A stretch of DNA of 24,919 nucleotides from a virus, in the IMG/VR virus record IMGVR_UViG_3300042466_000282, positions 1 through 24,919 of that record; one strand, given 5' to 3'. Positions 7,335 to 24,622 of this stretch are shown in pieces; the first letter of the stretch is position 1; every line of letters starts with the position of its first letter. Below the pieces are notes generated by a model. The model worked only from the letters and a program-made list of their open reading frames with translations, was not told the origin of the DNA and did no database searches. A program made the position numbers and the translations under genes.

Positions 7335-7787
7335 TTAATCTTCGTTTTGTTTAGGAACTTGACAATCAGTGTAGTTATTTATTGAACACGTTAAAGTCAT
7401 TGTCCACCCCGCTGCATAATCTAACAAGTCATTATTTAAAGGTGTCATTGTTGGTTGACCTACGATATCAAAATCAAAATCATCTGAATATAAAAACCAA
7501 TTGTATAAGTCGTTTAAGATTAAATGGCAATCACTTAAAATTACGTTTATGTTTGCTCGGTCTTTTTGTATAATATCAAAGCAATAAATCTCTAAATTTA
7601 TTTCGGTAGTAAAACCCATTTCGCTTGGAATCGCATCTACAGGACAAATAAAAACTAAAGGATATTTTTCGTCTTTTGTAGCGAAGTTTTCTAATTGCTC
7701 ACGAAAATCTGAACCTACTTTTTTAACTTGTAAATGGCTATCGTAGAAGTCAATTATCTTATTTACTAAACTTATATAACTTATCAT
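7335..7787 (-). CDS. Tail terminator-like protein
   Basis: A 150-residue alpha/beta protein of the size and type of phage tail terminator/completion proteins: an N-terminal helix (VNKIIDFYDSHLQV), a YPLVFICPVDAIPS strand-turn, an INLEIYCFDIIQKDRA strand, and a following helix (LSDCHLILNDLYNWF). The alternation helix-strand-strand-helix fits the lambda gpU-like fold, whose hexamer caps the finished tail. The start overlaps the tape measure stop (ATGA). It comes after the tape measure in transcription order, the reverse of the usual order in siphoviruses. Family assignment is by architecture, not by a clear motif. Confidence 0.5.
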   Translation of the reverse strand: MISYISLVNKIIDFYDSHLQVKKVGSDFREQLENFATKDEKYPLVFICPVDAIPSEMGFTTEINLEIYCFDIIQKDRANINVILSDCHLILNDLYNWFLYSDDFDFDIVGQPTMTPLNNDLLDYAAGWTMTLTCSINNYTDCQVPKQNED

Positions 7788-9937
7788 AGTGTTGCGTTTT
7801 GATTTATTTTAGCGACTTTGTTTTGTGTTTTTGTTAGTTCGGTTTCACTTACTACAGCATTCACGGTTATCTCGGTTTGTTGTGATTGTGAACCACCTAC
7901 GTTATTCATATTGTTCCCTGCTCCAAACAAGTTAAATGAAGGTGTAGCCGTTCCCGTTGTAGAACTCGATGATGCACTCGGTAAGGTTGGTGTTTCGTTA
8001 CCACCACCACCGCCTGTAGAAGTAAATTGTGTAGATGCAATCTTTGCGATGTTAGCCGCTGAAGTTGCAGCCGTTGCTACAAGTGCAGCAATTCCGCCCG
8101 GACTTGGAACACCTAAAATTGTTAAAGGTGAAGCAGCTAAAGATGCCGTTATTGCTTTTCCTGCATCAATGATAGCACCCGACAACTGCATAGCTTTGTT
8201 AAACTTAAATTGTTTCTTGGCTAACTCTTCTTCTTCTTTACTTCCCTTTTTAACCTTCGCCATTTTAGCACCGAAAGCTATATCTCCTACTGCTTGAATT
8301 GCTTTTGTAGAATCTTCAGCAAGTTTCAAAGCAGCGTTTGCCGTGTCTAAATTTGCTTGCCGTTTTTTCTTTTCTTCATCTTCTTTTATTTTAACACGAG
8401 CATTAGCAGCGTCTTGGTCAATCTTGTTTAAGTCGTTTTGAAATTTCGTTGTTAACGCTTTTATTAATTCTTCGTTTTCACCCGCTGCTGCAATTTCTGC
8501 TTCATATTTTAATTGAAGTTGTGTTTTTTCCCATTCGGTTTGAGATTGGGTTAATTCCTGAAGTTTTAAATATTGTTTATCTTGTTCTTGGTATTGCTTA
8601 ATTAACCCCGCATTATATTCTTCAAGAACCTTTTGTTGTTTAGCCTTTTCAGCGTCTATAACGGTTTGTTCTTGTTTCTTTAAATCAACTTGTAATTGTT
8701 GGTTATAAAGTTCGGCTAATCGTGTTTTTTCTGCTGCTGTTAATGCTTCGTTTTTTTGTAAATCCTGCATTTGTCGTACATACTTTTCATTAAGCGTAGC
8801 AATTTCACGTTCATTATCGTTTGCAATTAATGCGATTTCTAAGTCTGCTATTGTTCTTTGAGCGTTTATCCTATCTTCAGCAAATTTTTTAGCTGCATCC
8901 GCTGCTTTTTTAGCTGCATCCGCATTCGCTTTAGCTATCTTTTCGTTATTTTGCTTTTGTTTGTCAAGTTCTTTTTTTGCGTCTTCATCTTTTTTAACCG
9001 CATCTTCAGCAACAATAGCGTTACGCTCCCTTCTTTGATTTGTAATTATAGTATTTTCTTCTGTAATTTGCGCTTTTAATTTCTTAATCTCCTTTTCGTC
9101 CGCATCATCGCCAAGTTTTTGTTGTGCTTTTAACGCTTTTTCTGCTGATTTTAATCGTGTTTTTGCTTCAGAACCTATCGCTTTACTTTTTGCTAACTCT
9201 AAATCCAAAGTTTCTTGACCATAGATTTTAGCCATTCGGATTTCATAATCGAAATTACCGACAATCGTTTCTTGACGTGCTTTAGAACTTTCCATTATTT
9301 GTTCATTCGCTGCTAACATCTTTTCGGCATTTTCTTCAGCGGCAAAACTTGTAATTCCTAACCAATCCGTTAAATCTTTAAACCCTTGAATTAAGTCGTA
9401 AATAGGTTTCATTAAAAAGTCAATAATCTTTTTTAGAATCCCCATTTTATTCAGTAACAAAAGAATAGCTACTACGATAGCCGTGATTACCGCAACCAAT
9501 AAAAAGATAGGGTTTGCAAGTAACGAAATACCAAAAGCGATAAACTGCTTCATAGCTGCCCCAACTGCTGAACCTAACCCTAACACCGTTTGACCAAAGC
9601 CTTTAAATTGTGCGGCTAAATCCGCAGGGTTTATTCCTTTTATTGCATTCGTTAATAGTTTTGATTTTTCAGCAGCTTCGGCAAAGTCTAACGACATTAT
9701 AGAGCTTTTAATAGAACCTAATCCGTTACTGACTTGTTCGAATTTAGAACCTGAAGCAAAAATATTTACTTGTTCGTTTGCGTCTGCTAATTGGTCTTTT
9801 AGTTCACCCGCTCTTTGTGATAACTTGGCAACTTGTTCGGAATCCGTAGCATTTGCAATTTCGCCTTTTAGTTCACGCAATTCTTTTTTAATTGCACCTA
9901 TGCCGGTTATCTTTAATGGAACTTCTATTTCATTCAT
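7784..9937 (-). CDS. Tail length tape measure protein
   Basis: A 717-residue protein with the expected build: a heptad-rich N-terminus (IKKELRELKGEI near 16-27), a strongly hydrophobic region of about 30 residues near 131-163 (IAFGISLLANPIFLLVAVIT and beyond), a very long charged coiled coil rich in K, E, A and Q from about 205 to 560, and a small-residue hydrophobic C-terminal segment (IAALVATAATSAANIAKIAS) before a Gly/Ser/Thr-rich tail. Tape measures fix tail length and are ejected with DNA; the hydrophobic parts may enter the host membrane. It starts three bases after the baseplate-type gene. A repeated AADAAKKAADAAKK-like stretch around 340-355 is low-complexity coiled coil. Confidence 0.85.
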   Translation of the reverse strand: MNEIEVPLKITGIGAIKKELRELKGEIANATDSEQVAKLSQRAGELKDQLADANEQVNIFASGSKFEQVSNGLGSIKSSIMSLDFAEAAEKSKLLTNAIKGINPADLAAQFKGFGQTVLGLGSAVGAAMKQFIAFGISLLANPIFLLVAVITAIVVAILLLLNKMGILKKIIDFLMKPIYDLIQGFKDLTDWLGITSFAAEENAEKMLAANEQIMESSKARQETIVGNFDYEIRMAKIYGQETLDLELAKSKAIGSEAKTRLKSAEKALKAQQKLGDDADEKEIKKLKAQITEENTIITNQRRERNAIVAEDAVKKDEDAKKELDKQKQNNEKIAKANADAAKKAADAAKKFAEDRINAQRTIADLEIALIANDNEREIATLNEKYVRQMQDLQKNEALTAAEKTRLAELYNQQLQVDLKKQEQTVIDAEKAKQQKVLEEYNAGLIKQYQEQDKQYLKLQELTQSQTEWEKTQLQLKYEAEIAAAGENEELIKALTTKFQNDLNKIDQDAANARVKIKEDEEKKKRQANLDTANAALKLAEDSTKAIQAVGDIAFGAKMAKVKKGSKEEEELAKKQFKFNKAMQLSGAIIDAGKAITASLAASPLTILGVPSPGGIAALVATAATSAANIAKIASTQFTSTGGGGGNETPTLPSASSSSTTGTATPSFNLFGAGNNMNNVGGSQSQQTEITVNAVVSETELTKTQNKVAKINQNATL

Positions 9938-12736: not shown

Positions 12737-14225
12737 TTACGTTATCTTGATTTGCTAAACGAACTACTATTGAATGTTTAATTAAGTTCTTGTTTCTTTG
12801 TTGGAACACTTCGTAATTCGTGTTTGTAACGATTACGGGTTGATATTGTGTTGATTCGGGAATCCTCAAAGGACATCCGCTTTCATCTTCAGGGTAAAGC
12901 CAAGATTCCGTGTTTGTATACGATGCCAACTTCAAATAAACTTGTGGTGACGTAATCAATTCTTCGAAATATCGATTCATTTCTTCAGTCATCCAATTCG
13001 TATTTAATTCAATCGTCTTTCTAACGTTTATGTTGAAAGTCTTAAACCCTTCTTCTAACGTTGAATAACTCCATTGGTCAGGTGATAAACTTGTGTCTAC
13101 GAATCCTGTAACATCTTTGTTATATTCGTCACGTGTAACTTCACCACGTTCGTAATTCTTCAACTGAAAAGCGAATGAACTAAATGAACCTAACCTATCC
13201 AAGAACAAACAATGGTATTCAGAAATTTGAACCCGTGTATCTAATTGAATTTTATATCGTGCGCTTAATGGTGCAAGTGTTATTAAATCGTTTGAATAAT
13301 AAAAAAAGTAAAAAGTAGTGTCCGTTTTTATCATCGGTAACGTTGCAGCTCCTATCGGGGTTAATACACCATAGTTATTCGGACCAACTGCGATTTGATT
13401 TATCGTACTTGTTCCCGTAATTGATTTGTAATACTGCTCCCCGTTGCTATTGGCAAAAATTAAATAATCGGGTGTTCCTGTTGGATTTAACGCATTCAAA
13501 TATATATCTTGTCCTAACGTACTATAAAAAGTTGTAGGTTGGTTTGTAAGAAGTCTTTTCGTGTTTGCGTCTAATGTGAAATCATCGTAATCGTAAGCAG
13601 CAAAATCTAACCATCTAAACACCCCGTTAAAAACAATGGCTTGGTATAATGAACCCGTTACATAAGTCTTACGATTGTCAGCATAAGTAATAGTTCCGTT
13701 AATCGATGCATCCGTTACAAGTGACCACAAAGAATTAACTACAATATACGAACCCGTTGCGCTTATAATAGTAAACAATCCTTCCAAGTATGGATTTGCT
13801 ACACCCCCATCATCTTGGGTAATGTTTATTTGGTCACCCGCTACAAAGCTATTCGTTACGTTTATTCTTACGTTTCCTGAACTATCTACTAACGTGTTTG
13901 TGTAATTTACGAAAGTCGTGTATTCTTCACCCGTTTCTAATCGATATGTATAATAAGAATTAGTTGCCGGGTAAAAGTTAGTTGAAGTAGTGTCTAAATC
14001 AAACGTGACATAATTACTTAATAACTTCGAAAGGTCTTGTTCACCATAACCCGTTCCGTATGTCGGCAAAAGTCTATATTCAGCAATTATGTTACTTGAC
14101 CCATCTTTTACTTTAAAGACATAACGAAAACCTTCATAGTTTTTTATGTTCGAATCTACAATCCATTTTATAGGATTATAAGCGGGCGTAATATCTTGCG
14201 GGCGTGCTATTAATGTTAATGCCAT
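12729..14225 (-). CDS. Tail/baseplate structural protein
   Basis: A 498-residue beta-rich protein that begins MALTLIARPQDITPAYNPIKW, a start seen in Bacteroidetes phage tail proteins that accompany the large hub-type protein. The central region (100-330) has many T, N and Y residues in short strands, including a Gly-rich turn VTDASINGTITYADNRKTYV. The C-terminal 150 residues (NYERGEVTRDEYNKDVTGF, then VIVTNTNYEVFQQRNKN) are more charged and mixed. It is likely a component of the tail tip. Its ATG overlaps the stop of the 78-residue gene by one base, and it overlaps the hub gene by 8 nt, so the tail tip genes are coupled. No enzymatic motif seen. Confidence 0.6.
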   Translation of the reverse strand: MALTLIARPQDITPAYNPIKWIVDSNIKNYEGFRYVFKVKDGSSNIIAEYRLLPTYGTGYGEQDLSKLLSNYVTFDLDTTSTNFYPATNSYYTYRLETGEEYTTFVNYTNTLVDSSGNVRINVTNSFVAGDQINITQDDGGVANPYLEGLFTIISATGSYIVVNSLWSLVTDASINGTITYADNRKTYVTGSLYQAIVFNGVFRWLDFAAYDYDDFTLDANTKRLLTNQPTTFYSTLGQDIYLNALNPTGTPDYLIFANSNGEQYYKSITGTSTINQIAVGPNNYGVLTPIGAATLPMIKTDTTFYFFYYSNDLITLAPLSARYKIQLDTRVQISEYHCLFLDRLGSFSSFAFQLKNYERGEVTRDEYNKDVTGFVDTSLSPDQWSYSTLEEGFKTFNINVRKTIELNTNWMTEEMNRYFEELITSPQVYLKLASYTNTESWLYPEDESGCPLRIPESTQYQPVIVTNTNYEVFQQRNKNLIKHSIVVRLANQDNVNG

Positions 14226-14461
14226 TATACTTCGAATTGTTCAATCCATTTATTAACCATTGTCGGAATGTCATCGTCATCCCACGAATATTCGTAAGGC
14301 ATATCACTTGCCGTTACCCCAAAAGTTGCACTATCCGTAGTTAATAGAATATCTATGCTTAATAGTTTATCGATTGCTTTATCTTGAATCGTGTTTAAGT
14401 CTATTGTAATAGTCGGATTAACTATTTCTATTTTGAATTGCTCAAATTTATAAGTTGCCAT
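14225..14461 (-). CDS. Small hypothetical tail-region protein
   Basis: A 78-residue acidic protein with no recognised domain: N-terminal MATYKFEQFKIEIVNPTITI, a middle with DKAIDKLLSIDILLTT, and an acidic patch SWDDDDIPTMVNKWIEQFEV at the end. It sits between the DUF1566 adhesin and the tail protein, four bases after the former and overlapping the latter by one base, so it belongs to the same tail operon. A role as a small chaperone or linker for the adhesin is possible, but only from position. Confidence 0.6.
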   Translation of the reverse strand: MATYKFEQFKIEIVNPTITIDLNTIQDKAIDKLLSIDILLTTDSATFGVTASDMPYEYSWDDDDIPTMVNKWIEQFEV

Positions 14462-14465
14462 AATT

Positions 14466-15080
14466 TTATGTTAAGGTTGTTCCTGTTACCGTGAATGTTC
14501 TTACGGGAAAATAAGTATATGCCACTGATGTTGTTTTAGCCACTTGAGCTGTCATACCTACATTAGTCAAAACATAAGCATTTGCAGTTCCTGCTACATT
14601 GGTATTTGAACTCCAATATACTCTACCAACAGAAGCTAAATTTATAGGAGAATAATTTAAAAAATTACTTGGGTCATTAGCGAAATTAACAAAATTGTAA
14701 ATCTCTTTCATATTTGGCAATCTCCATCCACTTGTGAATGTTCCAATGGAAAAAGCAAGTGAATTGTCTATAGCTTGGTTCCAAGTATTACCCGTTGCAA
14801 TATTAACACGTGAAAGACCTAACACGTTTGTTCCGTTGTATGTCGACCAATCTATTACGATATTGTTTGTGTAAGTTTGTGTTCCTAATTCTGAAGTAAA
14901 ACGATTCGTGTTTCCGAATGGATTGTTTTCCGCTAACGTTGTAAAAGAAACGGAACGACCCGCTTCAATATCGCCATCGTCACCCGTTCGGTAACTTGTC
15001 GTTTGTCCCGTTTTCATTAACGTAGCAGTTGACCGACTTACTGCCGTTGCTCTCGCTTTAATATACAAATCACTTATCAT
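14466..15080 (-). CDS. DUF1566 (Lcl-C type) putative receptor-binding protein
   Basis: A 204-residue protein whose residues about 25-195 match the DUF1566/Lcl-C pattern: TGQTTSYRTGDDGDIEAGR near the start, RFTSELGTQTYTNN, then the hallmark GWRLPNMKEIYNFVN (about 118-132), a YWSSN strand, and YFPVRTF near the end. This domain has a C-type-lectin-like fold and is common in adhesins. In a phage tail operon it suggests host-surface recognition. It overlaps the preceding fibre-type gene (ATGA). The part coding residues about 97-186 (14521-14790) is nearly free of CpG, while the N-terminal half and neighbours are rich in it, which suggests the binding portion was exchanged by recombination. No reverse transcriptase or template repeat is seen. 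Confidence 0.7.
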   Translation of the reverse strand: MISDLYIKARATAVSRSTATLMKTGQTTSYRTGDDGDIEAGRSVSFTTLAENNPFGNTNRFTSELGTQTYTNNIVIDWSTYNGTNVLGLSRVNIATGNTWNQAIDNSLAFSIGTFTSGWRLPNMKEIYNFVNFANDPSNFLNYSPINLASVGRVYWSSNTNVAGTANAYVLTNVGMTAQVAKTTSVAYTYFPVRTFTVTGTTLT

Positions 15081-15691
15081 ATTCTTGTAGCGTTTAAAGT
15101 TACAACGGACGCCGTGTTTGCTGTTATAGTAATTTTACTTCCTGAAGCTATCGTGTTCCCAAGTGTATAAGCTGCTCCATCGTCTTGAATCGTAATAGTA
15201 GGTGCGTTTAAAATGTTTGTTACTGAATCAATACTTAAGTTATAAGGTGCGTAAAAGTCAGTAGTTAACGCATCGATTAATTCTATTGTGTATTTAGGTC
15301 GGTGAACTATTACGTCTTTATTTTTGATTGTGAATATCTCATCGCCATCGTTATGGTCTTTAACTGCAAAGCTATGATAGTTAGCGTCGCTTCGAACTTC
15401 GAACGTTATGTTATCCGTGTTATTCTTGTGTGAGTGAACATTGAATTGACCCATTGTCTGAAACAATAGAACCTTATTATCACCCGTTAGAGTTCTATCA
15501 CCCGTTAACGTGCCATCACTATTATAGATATTAACACCACTACCTACAGCATCAATGATTTCTTGACCCGTAATGGATTTGGTTTGATAACTTCCGCTAA
15601 CTAATTCACTTATCTCTATTAAATCCGTAGAAGCTAAGTTAGACCCTTTCGGGGTCATTTGACTAATCTTTTGTCTTTCTCGATATGCCAT
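15077..15691 (-). CDS. Tail fibre/appendage-like structural protein
   Basis: A 204-residue protein. Its N-terminus, MAYRERQKISQMTPKGSNL followed by STDLIEISE and YQTKSITGQEIIDAVG (to about residue 50), is a recurrent attachment-type start of Bacteroidetes phage fibre proteins. The rest is beta-rich with a repeated TLTGDRTLTGDN turn (about 60-72) and an HSH-rich segment, suggesting a short fibre shaft or collar. It comes first in the tail cluster after the large terminase and is coupled to the DUF1566 protein, so the two probably form an attachment device together. ATG is preceded by TAATATTGTT, a variant of the leader box before 5627 and 7319. No lyase or hydrolase motif seen. Confidence 0.55.
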   Translation of the reverse strand: MAYRERQKISQMTPKGSNLASTDLIEISELVSGSYQTKSITGQEIIDAVGSGVNIYNSDGTLTGDRTLTGDNKVLLFQTMGQFNVHSHKNNTDNITFEVRSDANYHSFAVKDHNDGDEIFTIKNKDVIVHRPKYTIELIDALTTDFYAPYNLSIDSVTNILNAPTITIQDDGAAYTLGNTIASGSKITITANTASVVTLNATRI

Positions 15692-15720: not shown

Positions 15721-16872
15721 TTAGAAGGCAAAGTAACTATCATCGGTGTAATATTCCTGTCTGATATTAGTAACCGCGTAACGAATCGCATCCATTGCAT
15801 CGTCAAATAATTTGATAGGTTCATCCGTGATTATGTCGCCTACCTTTTTCCATTTGTAGTTATCGTATTCCTTTTTGATTTCTTTAGAATCTTCACAAAA
15901 AACCCCGAACGTTTTAATATTATCAATTCCTTTCTTCACCACCTTGTTTGCGTTTTGTACGTCAAACCCCGCATTATTCATTTCAGCTATTATTTCGGGT
16001 CGTGAGTAATCCGCTAATATCGTAACGTGTTTTTCTACCCCTAACTGATTCATCTTGTCGATTAAGTTCGTAGTAGTAAGATAACTTTCATAGATTACCT
16101 TTTCGATGAAGATGTCATTGTCTACCCAATAGACCCGAACCAATGCAGTAGGGTGATTATACCCGAAGTCTAACCCATAAACATAGTTAACGAATCGTGC
16201 CGGGCGATGGTTAATAAAGTTCCAATTCGAATAAATGTTTGATTTGCTAATGGCTTTTTCTCCAAGTGCATAGATTTGATAAAGTGCTTCATCGGTTCGT
16301 TTTAAATCCTCGATTTGTTTCTTAATGCTTTCAGGTAAAAAAGGATTGTCACGATAAGTTGACTTAATTAATATGCTTTCGTCTTTCGGTAACTCGTAAA
16401 GCCAACTTGAACTCTCGGATGGATTATAATCAAATATCAACTTAAACTCGGTTCGCATATTTAATTGCGTGAAGTCATCGTAATACAATTCATTGGCTTC
16501 ATTGCACCAAGCGACATCACGTTTGCGCCCTCGTATCTTTTGTTCATCGTCAACACTGAAGAATTCAACTATCGAACCATTATCGAACGTGTAGATATGT
16601 TCCGATTTGTTATGTCGTTCCTGTGAATAGATGTTAAGTTCTTTTAGGATTTCGAAGAAGTCACGCATAACCGTCGCTCGTAAAGCAGGGAAAGTCTTTC
16701 GAATAATGCTAACTACCTTCTGCGGATTTTGTAAACTATAAACGATTAGTAATTGACAAAGTGAATAGGTTTTACTTGAACGTGAACCACCTTCGTTAAT
16801 CACAAAACGCACCCCTTTATTCTGAAGTGCGTTAAAGTTCTTTTCGAATATAATTGTGCTGTTTAACTCCAT
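15721..16872 (-). CDS. terL: Terminase large subunit (PBSX type)
   Basis: A 383-residue packaging motor protein, complete in length for the PBSX/Terminase_3 group. The ATPase half has a Walker A variant, GGSRSSKT (residues 28-35), a Walker B-like region ending in the catalytic Glu (DVAWCNEANEL, 119-129), and the coupling-like FDYNPSESSSW. The nuclease half has GLDFGYNHPTAL (Asp235), ILADYS (Asp288) and FDDAMDAIRYA (near 357-366), the three acidic groups that bind metal. It cuts concatemeric DNA and drives it into the procapsid through the portal. The 53-nt gap after the small terminase contains an imperfect dyad (minus TAGGGTAAGTATAACCTA) but no T-run; it may be an operator. Confidence 0.9.
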   Translation of the reverse strand: MELNSTIIFEKNFNALQNKGVRFVINEGGSRSSKTYSLCQLLIVYSLQNPQKVVSIIRKTFPALRATVMRDFFEILKELNIYSQERHNKSEHIYTFDNGSIVEFFSVDDEQKIRGRKRDVAWCNEANELYYDDFTQLNMRTEFKLIFDYNPSESSSWLYELPKDESILIKSTYRDNPFLPESIKKQIEDLKRTDEALYQIYALGEKAISKSNIYSNWNFINHRPARFVNYVYGLDFGYNHPTALVRVYWVDNDIFIEKVIYESYLTTTNLIDKMNQLGVEKHVTILADYSRPEIIAEMNNAGFDVQNANKVVKKGIDNIKTFGVFCEDSKEIKKEYDNYKWKKVGDIITDEPIKLFDDAMDAIRYAVTNIRQEYYTDDSYFAF

Positions 16873-16925
16873 TTGCTCACTTTATACACATTTAGGTTAT
16901 ACTTACCCTATAGATGCGTTTACAA

Positions 16926-17366
16926 TTAATTCGTGTTTGTGTCACTTGGTTTTATGATATTGACTTTGATTTCGTTTATCGATTCACCATTTGTAGTTAC
17001 ATCGCTGCTATCTTTTATTCCAAGTTTACGAGCAATTAGATTAGGGTCAAACAATTTTACTGCTGCTCCTTTGAAATTGTGAACGTAACAATGTTTCCTT
17101 ATATACGCAATGATGGGGGCATATTCAGAATATCTGCCTTCTTTATTCTTTGAGTAATCACCTAAATCGTTTATAATTTCTTGGTTATAAAGGTATACTT
17201 CGAATCCGTCAAAGGTTATAGGTGTTTCAAGTGGGGTTTTAACTTGCTTACCTTCTTTACCAACGTAATCTACTCTATACATTGGGTTTTCTGATTCGTG
17301 TTTTACATACTCTTTGAATAACTGAAGTAGTTTTTCAGGTGTTTCTATTAGTTTAGGTTTTGGCAT
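16926..17366 (-). CDS. terS: Terminase small subunit (gp3-like)
   Basis: A 146-residue protein beginning MPKPKLIETPEKLLQLFKEY, an N-terminal DNA-binding-type helix pair, followed by a conserved block TPITFDGFEVYLYNQEI (about 48-64), YAPIIAYIRKHCYVHNFKGAAVKLFDPNLI (positions about 82-111) and an ARKLGIKDSSDVTTNG C-terminal oligomer-end motif. This arrangement matches small terminase subunits of the P22 gp3-like type, which recognise the packaging site and regulate the large subunit. Directly followed by the large terminase gene. One base separates it from the upstream small gene. Confidence 0.8.
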   Translation of the reverse strand: MPKPKLIETPEKLLQLFKEYVKHESENPMYRVDYVGKEGKQVKTPLETPITFDGFEVYLYNQEIINDLGDYSKNKEGRYSEYAPIIAYIRKHCYVHNFKGAAVKLFDPNLIARKLGIKDSSDVTTNGESINEIKVNIIKPSDTNTN

Positions 17367-19195: not shown

Positions 19196-19555
19196 CTAAT
19201 TTTCGGCTAATTTATACAATTTTTTTTGATAGTTCAACAAACGACCTAAAGCACGAGCGCAAGTGTCTAACCTATAAACGTATTTATCCGCTAATTCGTG
19301 TAACAAACCTTTCTTACAAGTCATTATCATATCTGAATGTAACCTCATTCGTGTTTGCATCCCTTGTATCATATCTTCTATTATTCCCATACGGTCTTCT
19401 ACTTCGTCTTTATCTAAGGCTACTCCTTTACCATCGCAAGACATACAAGTAAAGTCAACAGGGTTTTGTTCATAAGGTATATGCGTATCGTTTAAATCGA
19501 TTGTTACATAACCATCTCCATCACATTCAGGGCAATTCATAAATAAATTTTTCAT
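19196..19555 (-). CDS. Zinc-ribbon protein with DnaJ-type CxxCxGxG motifs
   Basis: A 119-residue protein. CPECDGDG (Cys8, Cys11) and CMSCDGKG (Cys37, Cys40) match the DnaJ central CxxCxGxG repeat, forming one zinc site. Residues 50-119 are helical and charged (DRMGIIEDMIQGMQTRMRLH, then LLHELADKYVYRLDTCARAL), likely coiled coil. The start is MKNLFMNCPEC; MNCPEC at 19540 is an alternative. The promoter at 19579-19607 lies just upstream. The first codons (ATGAAAAATTTATTTA) are identical to those of the ERF gene. It is the first gene of the middle transcript. Function unknown; no J-domain. Confidence 0.65.
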   Translation of the reverse strand: MKNLFMNCPECDGDGYVTIDLNDTHIPYEQNPVDFTCMSCDGKGVALDKDEVEDRMGIIEDMIQGMQTRMRLHSDMIMTCKKGLLHELADKYVYRLDTCARALGRLLNYQKKLYKLAEN

Positions 19556-19578
19556 AATAAATAGTTTTAATTGTTGAA

Positions 19579-19607
19579 CAAATATAATTATATTTTTTAA
19601 TATAACT
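19579..19607 (-). promoter_or_regulatory. Repeated phage promoter, copy P1
   Basis: Minus strand: AGTTATATTAA is followed 18 nt from the TATATT start by TATATTTG (19586-19579), the Bacteroidetes -7 element. Then comes TTC, AACAATTAAAA (19575-19565) and the ATG at 19555. It restarts transcription after the terminator at 19613-19648. Copies P2 (22394-22423) and P3 (22827-22855) have the same layout. Confidence 0.75.
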
Positions 19608-20162: not shown

Positions 20163-20348
20163 TTACTTTGTTTTAATATATAACCTTTTAAATCTTTCAA
20201 CCGAACAACAAAACTCTGTTATAGGGTTTGTTTCATATTGTCTTATAGTTTCGTACCAAAGTTTATCCTTTTTAAAGTCTTTGATTTGTACTACTTGCTC
20301 TCGGGTCGTGTTTTTGTAGTAACCCATTACTTTTAAATCTTCATTCAT
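20163..20348 (-). CDS. Small hypothetical protein
   Basis: A 61-residue basic protein of unknown function between the exonuclease and the 81-residue protein. It contains LKVMGYYKNTTREQVVQIKD and two Cys (FCCSVERF), with no recognised domain. The ATG overlaps the upstream stop (ATGA), and the stop is one base from the next ATG, so it is part of the same coupled operon. Short, but supported by both overlaps. Confidence 0.5.
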   Translation of the reverse strand: MNEDLKVMGYYKNTTREQVVQIKDFKKDKLWYETIRQYETNPITEFCCSVERFKRLYIKTK

Positions 20349-21016
20349 AATTCTAAAATTAAATTGTTATAATATTCTCTTGCTAACTCTATTCGTTCTT
20401 TAATTTGCTCTATTACACTTTCGTCTTTTGCTATTTTAAAGACCTTGACACGCTTTTCTTTTGGTATGTGGTCAAAGTTATGTTTCTTCTGCACAAAATC
20501 TCTTACATCTAAACTTTCATCTATTAACCCTTGTTTCCAATGTTCACGCCTTACCTCATCTTCTACAATCTGAAAAGGTGTGTTTACAAGGCAGTAACAA
20601 AGTAACGCTTCTTCTTTTCCCGTTAACCACATATATCCCTGAAGTTGATAGTAATAATCTTTGTTAGGGCATTCAGTTTCAAAAAATGGAAACGTAGTTG
20701 CATCCCAACTGCATTTAACATCCAAAAGAATTTCATTCGTGTTTACGTCGGGTGTTCCTGTTAAATAATCGTTGGTTAGGTTTTCTTCATTCTTGTAAAT
20801 AAAGCCTAAGTTCAACACATCGTTAACAAGTACTATGCCTTCGTCTTCTACTTCGTTACCTTTGTCCGTGTACCTACTCCAGAACTCCTTACGTATTCCG
20901 TATTTATGTTCGATTGCAAGTTCCTGAATGTAGGTTTTAGTAGTTTTAGAAAGAACTTCCCCTTTTGTTTTAGGGGAAGTCATCAATTTTCCTATTTGTG
21001 AAGCTCTTATTTTCAT
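20345..21016 (-). CDS. YqaJ/lambda-exo-type recombination exonuclease
   Basis: A 223-residue PD-(D/E)XK nuclease. Seen: MKIRASQIGKLMTSPK at the start (YqaJ-type), the acidic helix DKGNEVEDEG (51-60), GTPDV with Asp90, the core LLDVKCSWD (Asp99 and Lys101), and the QxxxY helix YYYQLQGYMWLTG (Gln124/Tyr128). Together these form the metal-dependent 5'-3' exonuclease that digests one strand of double-stranded ends. Its partner is the ERF annealing protein two genes upstream, so the pair is a lambda Red/RecET-like recombination system. The start overlaps the ParB-like stop by one base. Confidence 0.85.
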   Translation of the reverse strand: MKIRASQIGKLMTSPKTKGEVLSKTTKTYIQELAIEHKYGIRKEFWSRYTDKGNEVEDEGIVLVNDVLNLGFIYKNEENLTNDYLTGTPDVNTNEILLDVKCSWDATTFPFFETECPNKDYYYQLQGYMWLTGKEEALLCYCLVNTPFQIVEDEVRREHWKQGLIDESLDVRDFVQKKHNFDHIPKEKRVKVFKIAKDESVIEQIKERIELAREYYNNLILEL

Positions 21017-21846: not shown

Positions 21847-22371
21847 TTATATAAGTAATAATGCTTTTTGTTGTACTTCATTTAATTCGAACTTTGTTTG
21901 TAGTTCTTCGGCTGTAAATTCACCGTTACGGATAGCTTCTACTGCTTTTAAGAATCGTTCACCTTGTATCGTTGGTTTCTTTTCCGTCTTTACGGCTTTT
22001 ATTTGTTCTCCAGCTGCGTCAACATCTTTGTCGGTTACAATACCTAAAATCGAAGATAGTGCGTAACGTCTTAAATAAGTAATTGCAGAACCTAAAACCT
22101 GAAAGTCATTCATCCCTTTAAGTTGAACACCTTGAGGAATATCCGTTTGGCTGTCTATTTGTTCACCGCTTTCGCAATGAAATAAACAAGTTACTATTTG
22201 TTGCCCGTTAATTAATTGGGTAAATCCTAATCCGTGTTTTTGTAATAACGGGTTAATTACTTCAAAGATTTTCGGAAGGTCTGCATACGAATATCCGTAG
22301 CCTTGCGTTCCTTTGTGAATTACTGGCACTTCTTGTTGAAATGCTGCTAAACTTTTAAATAAATTTTTCAT
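21847..22371 (-). CDS. ERF-family single-strand annealing protein
   Basis: A 174-residue protein of the ERF superfamily. YADLPKIFEVINPLLQKHGL (29-48) and the core motif GSAITYLRRYALSSILGI (94-111) are hallmarks. It binds and anneals single-stranded DNA during phage recombination. The N-terminus is MKNLFKSLAAFQQEVPV, sharing the exact first 16 nucleotides with the zinc-ribbon gene at 19555. The C-terminal 50 residues are a small acidic helical tail. It has its own upstream promoter (22394-22423). Confidence 0.85.
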   Translation of the reverse strand: MKNLFKSLAAFQQEVPVIHKGTQGYGYSYADLPKIFEVINPLLQKHGLGFTQLINGQQIVTCLFHCESGEQIDSQTDIPQGVQLKGMNDFQVLGSAITYLRRYALSSILGIVTDKDVDAAGEQIKAVKTEKKPTIQGERFLKAVEAIRNGEFTAEELQTKFELNEVQQKALLLI

Positions 22372-22393
22372 AATATAAATTTTAATTGTTTTA

Positions 22394-22423
22394 CAAATAT
22401 AACTATTCTTTTTAATATAACAC
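22394..22423 (-). promoter_or_regulatory. Repeated phage promoter, copy P2
   Basis: Minus-strand GTGTTATATTAAAAAGAATA is followed by TATATTTG (22401-22394) with 18 nt from TATATT to the -7 element, then TAAAACAATTAAAA and the ATG at 22371. It is very close in sequence to P3 and drives the ERF-ParB-exonuclease genes. Confidence 0.75.
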
Positions 22424-22437
22424 TAAAAAAAAAGAAA

Positions 22438-22803
22438 TTATATAAACTTTTTTAACCCTTCAGCGCATCGTTGAATTGAATTAGCACGTTCTTGAAGGCT
22501 TTTAATTTGCTCAGAGATAGTTTCCTTGCAATCGCTTGTAAAATAGCCGTTAGAGGTAGCTATTAATGGTATAATACCGTTTGTGCGAATGTAGTTTACT
22601 ATCTTACGCAATCTCGGTTGAGTCATTTTTGGGTGTAAATATGGATGCTTTTCTAAATAATCGTTTAACCTACTAACGATTAATTCTGCTTTAATCGGAT
22701 TTTCCTTTTTGTAATTACGAAATCCGTGAACTACTATTGGAAGAATCTCCATTTCATCGCTTGTGAGCTCGTGTGTGAACTCTTCAAAATTTGTTACTGA
22801 CAT
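22438..22803 (-). CDS. Conserved phage protein with winged-helix-like region
   Basis: A 121-residue protein of a type frequent in Bacteroidetes phages. It has MSVTNFEEFTHELTSDEMEI at the start, then a helical part (NPIKAELIVSRLNDYL), a TQPRLRKIVNYIRTNGIIPL segment (about 61-80) that reads as the recognition part of a winged helix, IATSNGYF as the wing, and a C-terminal amphipathic helix (EQIKSLQERANSIQRCAEGL). It might bind DNA in replication or regulation. It has its own promoter copy (22827-22855), and its 3' end is followed by the promoter of the ERF gene. Named function unknown. Confidence 0.6.
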   Translation of the reverse strand: MSVTNFEEFTHELTSDEMEILPIVVHGFRNYKKENPIKAELIVSRLNDYLEKHPYLHPKMTQPRLRKIVNYIRTNGIIPLIATSNGYFTSDCKETISEQIKSLQERANSIQRCAEGLKKFI

Positions 22804-22826
22804 AATTTAAGTTTTAATTGTTTGGT

Positions 22827-22855
22827 CAAATATAGTTATTCTTTTTAATATAACT
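22827..22855 (-). promoter_or_regulatory. Repeated phage promoter, copy P3
   Basis: Minus-strand AGTTATATTAAAAAGAATAA is followed by TATATTTG (22834-22827) with 18 nt spacing, then ACCAAACAATTAAAA and the ATG at 22803. The upstream half (22845-22855) is inside the final codons and stop of the NinG gene, so promoter and coding end are superimposed. Confidence 0.75.
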
Positions 22856-23369
22856 CTAATTGTTTAATCTTTTTTTTATAGGTATTAATTATTTCCTTTA
22901 ACTCTTCCTTTGTAAACTTCCGTGTTTCCTTGCTTTCAGCTTCTAATATGTTAAATCTTTCAATGCCTATCTTTGAAATAAGTCGCATTCTATACTCCAG
23001 AAGATTGCCAGACAAAAACTGATTGCACGTAATGCAAGAACTATGTACGTTATCTTCATTAAATCGAACGTTGTAATGGTTGTTAGCATTCCAAAAATGC
23101 GAAGCGTTTACACGTCCTGTAATTGGTTTATCGCAGCTTATACAAGGTAACCCCTTATCTCGTAGGTTTATCCACTTGTTAAAGACTTGTTGGGTTAATT
23201 TAAGGTAATCACTCAAAGTCATTAAATCCAACTTCGCTTTTGCTTTCGTTTTTTTCCAAACCTTCGCCTTTTCGGATTCTACCCAAACACGGACGCATTC
23301 AGATTCTAAACAAAATTTTTGATTAAAGCGGATAGGTTCGAATTTCTGCTTACAATTCTTGCATTTCAT
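22845..23369 (-). CDS. ninG: NinG/Rap-type recombination protein
   Basis: A 174-residue protein matching the lambda NinG (Rap) family: an N-terminal zinc site CKNCKQKF (Cys3, Cys6) with Cys20 and Cys25, a helical middle, a second site CISC (76-79), then NASHFWN (His91), NVHSSCITCNQFLSGNLLEY (107-126) and KIGIERF. The order C-x2-C, H, H-x2-C-x2-C is the HNH-like NinG signature. Family members are Holliday-junction-type nucleases that help resolve recombination intermediates. The start overlaps the methyltransferase stop (ATGA). The last codons form part of promoter P3. Confidence 0.85.
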   Translation of the reverse strand: MKCKNCKQKFEPIRFNQKFCLESECVRVWVESEKAKVWKKTKAKAKLDLMTLSDYLKLTQQVFNKWINLRDKGLPCISCDKPITGRVNASHFWNANNHYNVRFNEDNVHSSCITCNQFLSGNLLEYRMRLISKIGIERFNILEAESKETRKFTKEELKEIINTYKKKIKQLELY

Positions 23370-24622
23370 AAGTTTAAATTTTTAATTATCTTATAAAGAA
23401 CATTTACTACTATTGAATTACCCGCTTGTTTGTATGCTTGACTATCTGAGCAAATCCAAGTAAATGTATCAGGAAAATCCATAAGCCTAAAACATTCACG
23501 GGGTGTTAATCTACGTATTTTGTAGCTGTTATATATTAACCCCTCTTTTTGTGGGTTTGGATTAGCAATTATTGTATCAAAATATTCTTGTTTTTTTAAT
23601 ATTAAACTTTTATCCTTAAAAGAACCAGAATCTTTACCAGTTTTTTTGTAATGTTCTTTTCTTCGTTTTTTTTCTTCATCTGACCTACCAAAACCTATTA
23701 CCATCACACCTTGATTACAAGACGTATCTAATGTTTGAGCCACTTGCTTGCCAACTCTTCCTCTTCGTGTTTCTGAATTAGGAACTAAAAAATTAATACT
23801 ATCCTCATCTGAAGCCTCATCATAACCTTTTGCCGTGGCTGATTTAATTTTTAGATATTGACCATCTGTTGGTGTTTTATGATATGAACTAATAATACAA
23901 TTAGCGTGATTTTCATTTCCATTTGCAAAAGGTAAAGCTCTTTTGTCTTGATTTTTTACCAAATAATCTACCATTTTTTCACTCAAAAAATACTTATCAT
24001 CCACATCACCCTCCAGAACATCCTTCAGTTTTTTACTAAGATGCTCTTCTCTTGGAAATTGAAAGTTGTTATCTGAATCATCACGAATTCCAATTAAAAA
24101 AACTCTCTCCCTATTCTGTGGGACCCCATGATGCTTTGCGTTCAACACTTGCCAATATAAATGATAAGGAACTGATTCCTCATAAGGGAATATAACTGAA
24201 ACCCCGTTAACTGATTTACCACCTAACATATTTACCCACTCTTGGAAAGTCTTACCATTATCGTCTGAAAGCAATCCTTTGACATTTTCAAAAATAAAAT
24301 AACGTGGTTTATTCACTTTGATAAACTCGTGCGAATTAAAAAACAATATTCCTCGTTTATCGTCTTTTCCTAATCTTTTACCGGCTAAACTAAATGCTTG
24401 ACAAGGGGGTGATGTCATATAGATGTCAAGTGATTCAGATGGAATCTCACGTTCATAAACGTTTGTTGGATAATATTCAGGTTCACCATAGTTATGGATG
24501 AATGTTTGTCGTGCGTACTTATCCATATCACAAGCGAATAATTCTTGATATTCAATCCCTAATCTGATTAAGGCTTGATTGAATGCGCCAACACCGCTAA
24601 AATCACTTCCTACTTTTATCAT
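23366..24622 (-). CDS. C5-cytosine DNA methyltransferase
   Basis: A 418-residue Dcm-type enzyme with the conserved motifs in order: I DFSGVGAFNQAL (7-18), IV SPPCQAFSLAG with catalytic Cys74 (71-81), VI ENVKGL (112-117), VIII QNRERVFLIG (169-178), IX RLTPRECFRLMDFP (near 370-385), X QAGNSIVVNVLY (near 398-410). The target-recognition region, about 200-360, is highly charged. It transfers a methyl group from AdoMet to C5 of cytosine. No restriction partner is adjacent, so it is likely an orphan phage enzyme protecting DNA against host restriction. The central part (23581-24300) has few CpG dinucleotides compared with neighbours, suggesting acquisition. The start overlaps the previous stop. Confidence 0.9.
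   Translation of the reverse strand: MIKVGSDFSGVGAFNQALIRLGIEYQELFACDMDKYARQTFIHNYGEPEYYPTNVYEREIPSESLDIYMTSPPCQAFSLAGKRLGKDDKRGILFFNSHEFIKVNKPRYFIFENVKGLLSDDNGKTFQEWVNMLGGKSVNGVSVIFPYEESVPYHLYWQVLNAKHHGVPQNRERVFLIGIRDDSDNNFQFPREEHLSKKLKDVLEGDVDDKYFLSEKMVDYLVKNQDKRALPFANGNENHANCIISSYHKTPTDGQYLKIKSATAKGYDEASDEDSINFLVPNSETRRGRVGKQVAQTLDTSCNQGVMVIGFGRSDEEKKRRKEHYKKTGKDSGSFKDKSLILKKQEYFDTIIANPNPQKEGLIYNSYKIRRLTPRECFRLMDFPDTFTWICSDSQAYKQAGNSIVVNVLYKIIKNLNL

Follow-up and report, generated by a model that had tools for sequence, protein, structure and literature searches.

Probable replacement of the tip of a DUF1566/Lcl_C-like phage adhesin gene by recombination among environmental phages

The adhesin locus and its CpG content

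The window, that is, the whole stretch of 24,919 nucleotides analysed here (IMG/VR virus record IMGVR_UViG_3300042466_000282, positions 1 to 24,919), carries a gene for a probable adhesin on the same strand as the terminase genes (15721-17366) on one side and the tape measure gene (7784-9937) on the other, a placement among structural genes that fits a phage receptor-binding protein. The features of the locus are listed below, with related viral contigs designated L003, L004 and so on.

14225..14461, minus strand: next gene, 78 aa, first codons MATYKFEQFKIEI; the start is common to homologues
14466..15080, minus strand: gene of a DUF1566/Lcl_C-like protein, probable phage adhesin (receptor-binding protein); open reading frame of 204 aa
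14476..14819, minus strand: segment (about residues 88-202) whose source was very probably an L003-like phage, delimited by identity to L003 versus L004/L005
14478..14489, minus strand: GTAACAGGAACA, 12 bases at the distal border that encode residues 198-201, with codons more fixed than anywhere else in the family
14505..14792, minus strand: CpG-poor stretch with one CpG (at 14681), delimited by CpG positions
14790..15080, minus strand: proximal half, residues 1-97, as CpG-rich as the rest of the genome (24 CpG); protein conserved among phages, synonymous sites diverged
15077..15691, minus strand: gene upstream of the adhesin, 204 aa, probably encoding a tail or virion protein; no convincing family match, outside the exchanged piece

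The Lcl C-terminal/DUF1566 profile (PF07603) matches residues 97-188 of the adhesin (E 7.2e-7), and its score of 29.9 bits lies below the Pfam gathering cut-off of 34.9 bits, so the protein does not qualify for the family by profile. No match to the adhesin was found among solved structures by sequence profile at E 0.1, in the PDB by Foldseek at E 0.001, or among 50,697 phage records of isolated phages by tblastn at E 0.01. A structural model with 71 relatives as its basis is confident over about residues 70-204 (pLDDT block means of 74-97 over residues 71-204), and it aligns best with the C-terminal domain of Legionella Lcl (8q4e; Z 11.7, rmsd 2.6 over 113 residues, 24% identity), whose fold it shares by this alignment; it was this structural realignment, rather than the profile search or Foldseek, that named Lcl. 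The second match is Bdellovibrio Bd2740 (Z 11.2), followed by lower matches to C-type lectins and the phage protein Mtd (1yu2; Z 9.2, 118 residues, 14% identity). The model thus predicts a lectin-like Lcl/DUF1566 fold for the distal half, and fold and genomic context suggest that this half contacts the receptor. The N-terminal ends before the shared domain vary among relatives (L012, L023, L014 and others; for example MANDIGWGEG, MSTRIDIKP and MISALNFKIGGGG), as expected of phage-specific anchors.

A reading of the sequence alone had reported one CpG in about 240 bases of the distal half (14521-14760) and more than 20 in the next 300 bases. Both counts hold, with one CpG in 14521-14760 (at 14681), still one in 14521-14790, and 24 in 14761-15060, in a window whose overall CpG observed/expected ratio (o/e) is 1.36; the true extent of the CpG desert is 14505-14792. 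The raw count is nevertheless no proof of an unusual event, because equally low counts are reached by simulation: among 300 first-order Markov simulations of the whole window, 96 held a 240-base stretch with at most one CpG. Stretches of 240 bases with three CpGs or fewer form seven clusters in the window, and the CpG-free gap of 177 bases in the distal half is exceeded by two others (179 and 178 bases). A synonymous control, in which the protein was kept fixed and codons were drawn from the window's genes in 5000 resamplings, gave 14.6 CpGs expected in residues 101-204 versus 3 observed, a number as low in none of the 5000 resamplings, whereas residues 1-100 hold 24 versus 15.6 expected (as high in 0.9% of the resamplings). 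The sliding-window analysis of CpG and codons that the sequence-only reading had proposed agrees, since residues 101-190, with 1 CpG versus 11.8 expected, rank lowest of 503 90-codon gene windows. The next lowest CpG is found in a DNA methyltransferase gene (23366-24622), with 2 versus about 9.5 expected in several 90-codon windows; this gene may be another recent arrival.

Identity breaks and their borders

We collected relatives of the adhesin from viral contigs, taking the best 80 of 168 found with the whole protein, 23 found with the distal half and the best 80 of 303 found with the proximal half. Including the window these make 153 entries, 152 of them with a complete gene end, and 78 distinct genes after L108 (gene cut by the contig end) and 74 duplicates of other entries' genes were dropped; the alignment A1 left out 7 of the 78. 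The distal half of the window (residues 98-204) is 94% identical in nucleotides and 95% in amino acids to that of L003, a CpG-poor phage with a genome o/e of 0.17, and contains a long perfect run, versus 73% nucleotide identity in the proximal half (residues 19-97). Fourfold sites are equal at 43 of 51 positions distally and at 16 of 33 proximally (P = 0.0006, Fisher's exact test). The closest genome relatives, L004 and L005, show the reverse, with 87% nucleotide identity in the proximal and 81% in the distal half, although their half-to-half differences at fourfold sites are not significant alone (P = 0.46 and 0.80). Along the gene, identity to L003 is 55-83% upstream of about 14819, then mostly 93-100% as far as about 14476 (the exceptions being two 30-base blocks at 83% and one at 89%), and 50-78% beyond. 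L004 and L005 are collinear with much of the window, with flanks mostly at 80-100% and several blocks at 56-80% between 14756 and 14540.

The trees of the two halves agree with these profiles. The distal half of the window groups with L003 (SH-aLRT 96) and then L007 (92), and the proximal half groups with L004, L005 and L058 (90); the alignments are short (79 proximal and 107 distal columns), and most branches in both trees are therefore weak. Because L003 and L007, which are kindred CpG-poor phages, share the distal type and the kin of the window do not, the sequences are more simply read as a transfer into the lineage of the window, which is the likelier direction. The swap of the receptor-binding end by recombination that the sequence-only reading had proposed is supported by this base-level contrast between L003 and L004/L005, and by other phage pairs as well. 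Its border at about residue 97 does lie inside the gene; the transferred piece begins about 8 residues earlier, near residue 88, and includes two CpGs common to L003 ahead of the CpG border. The CpG border itself sits inside the lectin-like fold, past the first two predicted strands and just ahead of a helix at residues 100-109.

Similar breaks are evident in other pairs, which were picked for contrast out of 3003. L049 and L012 differ at one position in 237 bases of the proximal half (99.6% nucleotide identity, 41/41 fourfold sites equal) and are 75% identical in the distal half; their flanks are mostly at 93-100%, except that identity drops to 78% in a single downstream block of 60 bases and is lower beyond about 480 bases upstream. 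L048 repeats the gene of L049. The pairs L103/L056 and L033/L043 resemble L049/L012, though they are less identical outside. Conversely, L118 and L146, whose genomes have o/e of 0.78 and 0.12, share distal halves of 99% nucleotide identity and proximal halves of 82%, and L016 and L036 likewise have near-identical distal halves in diverged genes. Identity between L036 and L053 shows no sharp downstream recovery, the upstream flank is incomplete in L060/L055 and L045/L020, and L003/L007 was added to judge direction. These sequence comparisons suggest that the same kind of exchange, with nearly the same borders, takes place in many related environmental phages.

Base-level alignment of three pairs places the proximal border at residues 88-101 and the distal border at residues 199-202, with homology at both, as expected of an Erf-type mosaic. 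At the distal border, residues 198-201 (the first base of the codon of residue 198 being 14489 in the window) are encoded by GTA ACA GGA ACA with codon shares of 73/78, 60/69, 76/77 and 78/78. When the 52 conserved columns with four or six codons are ranked by this measure, these residues take four of the first five places, and the exact 12-base sequence occurs in 56 of the 78 genes. Of the 78 distinct loci, 76 have a next-gene start that fits a TYKF-type motif, and many loci cease to match the window at about 14412. The conserved 3' end and the start of the next gene could therefore serve as homology arms; this is a lead and not proof, since the relatedness of the sequences inflates the constancy of the border. 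A scan with the 3' border sequence and the next-gene start found at least 119 stretches, of which 118 loci were examined: 109 of these carry both gene halves, 6 are cut with the distal half visible, two (L191 and L252) are unrelated, and L162 consists of a stub of 17 residues that ends in the same way. The idea that the border sequence also ends unrelated proteins was dropped, as no new partner domain appeared among the 118 loci. The 78-aa gene itself varies more among relatives beyond its conserved start and has no family match; it could conceivably encode a chaperone or partner of the adhesin.

Composition across the family and alternative explanations

Genome CpG o/e ranges from 0.12 to 1.53 among the relatives. 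In the 78 distinct genes, CpG of the proximal half tracks that of the genome (slope 0.83, rho 0.76), and CpG of the distal half hardly does (slope 0.20, rho 0.40). Among 49 CpG-rich phages (o/e of at least 0.9), all 49 have a distal half poorer in CpG than the proximal half. The 50 further distinct genes obtained through the 3' border sequence, among the matches listed, give slopes of 0.68 proximally and 0.17 distally, and the distal half is poorer in all 14 of their CpG-rich phages, again among the matches listed. When expectation was based on each phage's own codon usage (75 of the 78 genes, 3 being dropped for too few codons), CpG observed/expected was 1.05 proximally and 0.38 distally in 47 CpG-rich phages, 0.97 and 0.38 in 8 intermediate phages, and 0.73 and 0.62 in 20 CpG-poor phages. 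Very low genome CpG (o/e of about 0.12-0.17) is found in L003, L007, L014, L016, L023, L112 and others, which have the gene in common with phages of o/e up to 1.5.

Between phages of contrasting CpG, median protein identity is 81% in the proximal and 51% in the distal half, in line with the pattern of conserved proximal and diverging distal halves that the sequence-only reading had looked for in orthologues. The same reading had named even conservation with uniform composition as evidence against a swap: conservation is uneven, but low distal CpG is common to the orthologues, so the feature is family-wide and not special to the window's phage. At fourfold sites, identity between CpG-rich and CpG-poor phages is 0.576 in the distal half versus 0.459 expected from composition, and 0.385 versus 0.336 in the proximal half. 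Distal fourfold identity exceeds proximal at P < 0.001 in 68 of 3003 pairs, and the reverse occurs in 1. The proximal protein follows genome CpG loosely in its relationships (rho 0.40), and its nearest neighbour belongs to the same CpG class in 44 of 78 cases (41.6 by chance). This mixing between classes implies that the whole gene, and not the tip alone, has moved between phages, the proximal half apparently over longer times.

These results could also be explained if selection or codon context kept the distal half CpG-poor anywhere, in which case the composition step would be no trace of transfer. We consider this rather unlikely, although a CpG-poor distal half is found in nearly all homologues regardless of genome, and many of these lack a close CpG-poor relative in the sample: in 22 of the 49 CpG-rich phages the distal half is CpG-poor with no CpG-poor distal relative above 70% nucleotide identity. 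Recency of import explains low distal CpG only weakly, nearness to a CpG-poor relative having rho of -0.20 (P = 0.17), or -0.32 (P = 0.03) relative to the genome. The amino acids do not, however, force low CpG, as seen in the synonymous control for the window and in the distal ratio of the 47 CpG-rich phages; distal halves with o/e of 1.05-1.36 exist (L024, L089, L152, L199 and L209); the distal half likewise shifts towards intermediate codon choices where no CpG is involved, in CpG-rich and CpG-poor phages alike; and the identity breaks would be left unexplained. A mild constraint on the distal half may act despite the CpG-rich examples. The sequence comparisons point to import from a CpG-poor phage in the window, and make it likely in a few others.

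Mtd is the target of a diversity-generating retroelement, and the match of the adhesin model to its fold raises the question of whether the distal end is varied by such an element, which happens in other phage proteins with a lectin-like fold; DUF1566 is also mentioned in excerpts of papers on these retroelements. This is highly improbable here, for the exchanged piece spans about 100 codons with clean borders, unlike scattered adenine changes. A search for reverse transcriptase (PF00078) found none in 51 records, possible fragments, whereas a control search of 14 known genomes detected it in 3. Nor is there a near-copy of the gene's 3' end, as a template repeat, among 20 of 40 direct families and 11 inverted pairs of repeats listed for the window, a contig that may be partial. 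Capture of the distal half from a DUF1566 gene of a bacterial host, rather than from phages, is very unlikely as well. Such proteins occur in a wide range of prokaryotes, according to an excerpt of PMC11162425, but a scan of genome contigs with the distal half, with a reach of close relatives only, gave 31 pattern matches and no confirmed one, whereas the same query found 23 in viral contigs. Chance fluctuation of CpG with no history behind it would suit the 96 simulations with raw counts as low; against the synonymous control, the family-wide repetition and the identity breaks its probability is next to negligible, and the mosaic comparison refutes it. Replacement of the adhesin tip (about residues 88-202) through homologous recombination by a piece from a CpG-poor phage related to L003 is thus very probably the correct explanation. 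The window and several of the pairs are mosaics with similar borders, and across the family distal composition is decoupled from that of the genome.

Candidate recombination genes and implications for phage adhesins

The window bears its own candidate agents of such an exchange:

20345..21016, minus strand: exonuclease, probable partner of Erf (phrog_5715, E 2.2e-61)
21847..22371, minus strand: Erf-family single-strand annealing recombinase, candidate agent (PF04404, E 2.9e-26; phrog_2324)
22845..23369, minus strand: NinG/Rap junction endonuclease, recombination accessory (PF05766, E 4.4e-41; phrog_171)

An Erf-family recombinase is therefore encoded in the window itself, and one is present in 22 of 47 records; it was not found in the other 25, that of L003 included, all of them possible fragments. 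According to PMC3945230, the phage D3 Erf protein and its exonuclease performed about as well as Red in recombining 78%-identical sequences in lambda-based assays, and rap contributes to mosaic formation. The gene content of the window suggests that the phage's own Erf, with the exonuclease and NinG/Rap, acted as the exchange agent. A 55-base A+T-rich repeat lies in three copies beside gene starts (19553-19607, 22368-22422 and 22801-22855); similar sequence is found in several related contigs, and the copies are possibly promoters or operators.

In the proposed mechanism, most of the lectin-like fold, from residue ~88 to residue ~202, would give way to its counterpart from a CpG-poor relative of L003. 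Erf, the exonuclease and NinG/Rap would carry out the exchange, with the conserved proximal half as one arm and the conserved 3' end plus the next-gene start as the other. At the borders are the first strands and the last strand of the predicted fold, all of them conserved, so that a new centre could fit the old frame, and low CpG would mark the import from CpG-poor phages. Tip exchange of this kind may change host range.

Exchange of phage attachment parts is in general already known. The excerpt of PMC10579305 reports tail-fibre modules shared between Alteromonas phages, and the present case is similar in that a host-recognition part is common to unrelated phages and exchanged by recombination; in the Alteromonas phages, however, the module consists of fibre and chaperone, whereas the piece that appears to be exchanged here is a run of about 105-115 codons within a single folded domain, and composition marks its donor. 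The case also resembles the Rad52-like relaxed recombination described in part of PMC3945230, in which mosaics form between diverged phage sequences with Erf and Rap implicated; that process was demonstrated by experiment in lambdoid phages, whereas here the agent is deduced from the genes. Lcl, which has the same fold by structural alignment, is described in part of PMC11162425 as a bacterial surface adhesin with a collagen-like stalk, whereas the protein here belongs to a phage and has no stalk. A search of the open-access literature found no paper on tip exchange in a DUF1566/Lcl_C-like phage adhesin family. Bordetella phage Mtd is likewise a phage protein with a C-type-lectin-like fold and a variable end, but it is varied by a retroelement, whereas here variation would arise by recombination of whole segments.

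Overall this is a real and well-supported tip exchange of a generally known kind, and its unusual aspects are the borders within one predicted fold, the compositional tracer and the recurrence across the family. The differences of about tenfold in genome CpG imply that the phages involved probably have different hosts. We put forward, tentatively and at somewhat less than even confidence, that environmental phages about tenfold apart in CpG draw on a common pool of adhesin tips, with near-fixed borders within one folded domain, a 12-base distal border kept at the DNA level as a recombination arm, and exchange too fast for the tips to adopt the composition of their genomes. If this is true, the tip pool would be a recombination-based counterpart of retroelement-driven variation in the same fold. 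The CpG contrast between phages provides a built-in tracer of the inherited and the borrowed part of the gene across more than 100 metagenomic homologues. L049 and L012 form a natural pair that differs mainly in the tip around the adhesin gene, so the effect of the tip on host choice is directly testable. These results suggest that one lectin-like fold has been diversified by two routes, retroelement mutagenesis and the exchange of segments.
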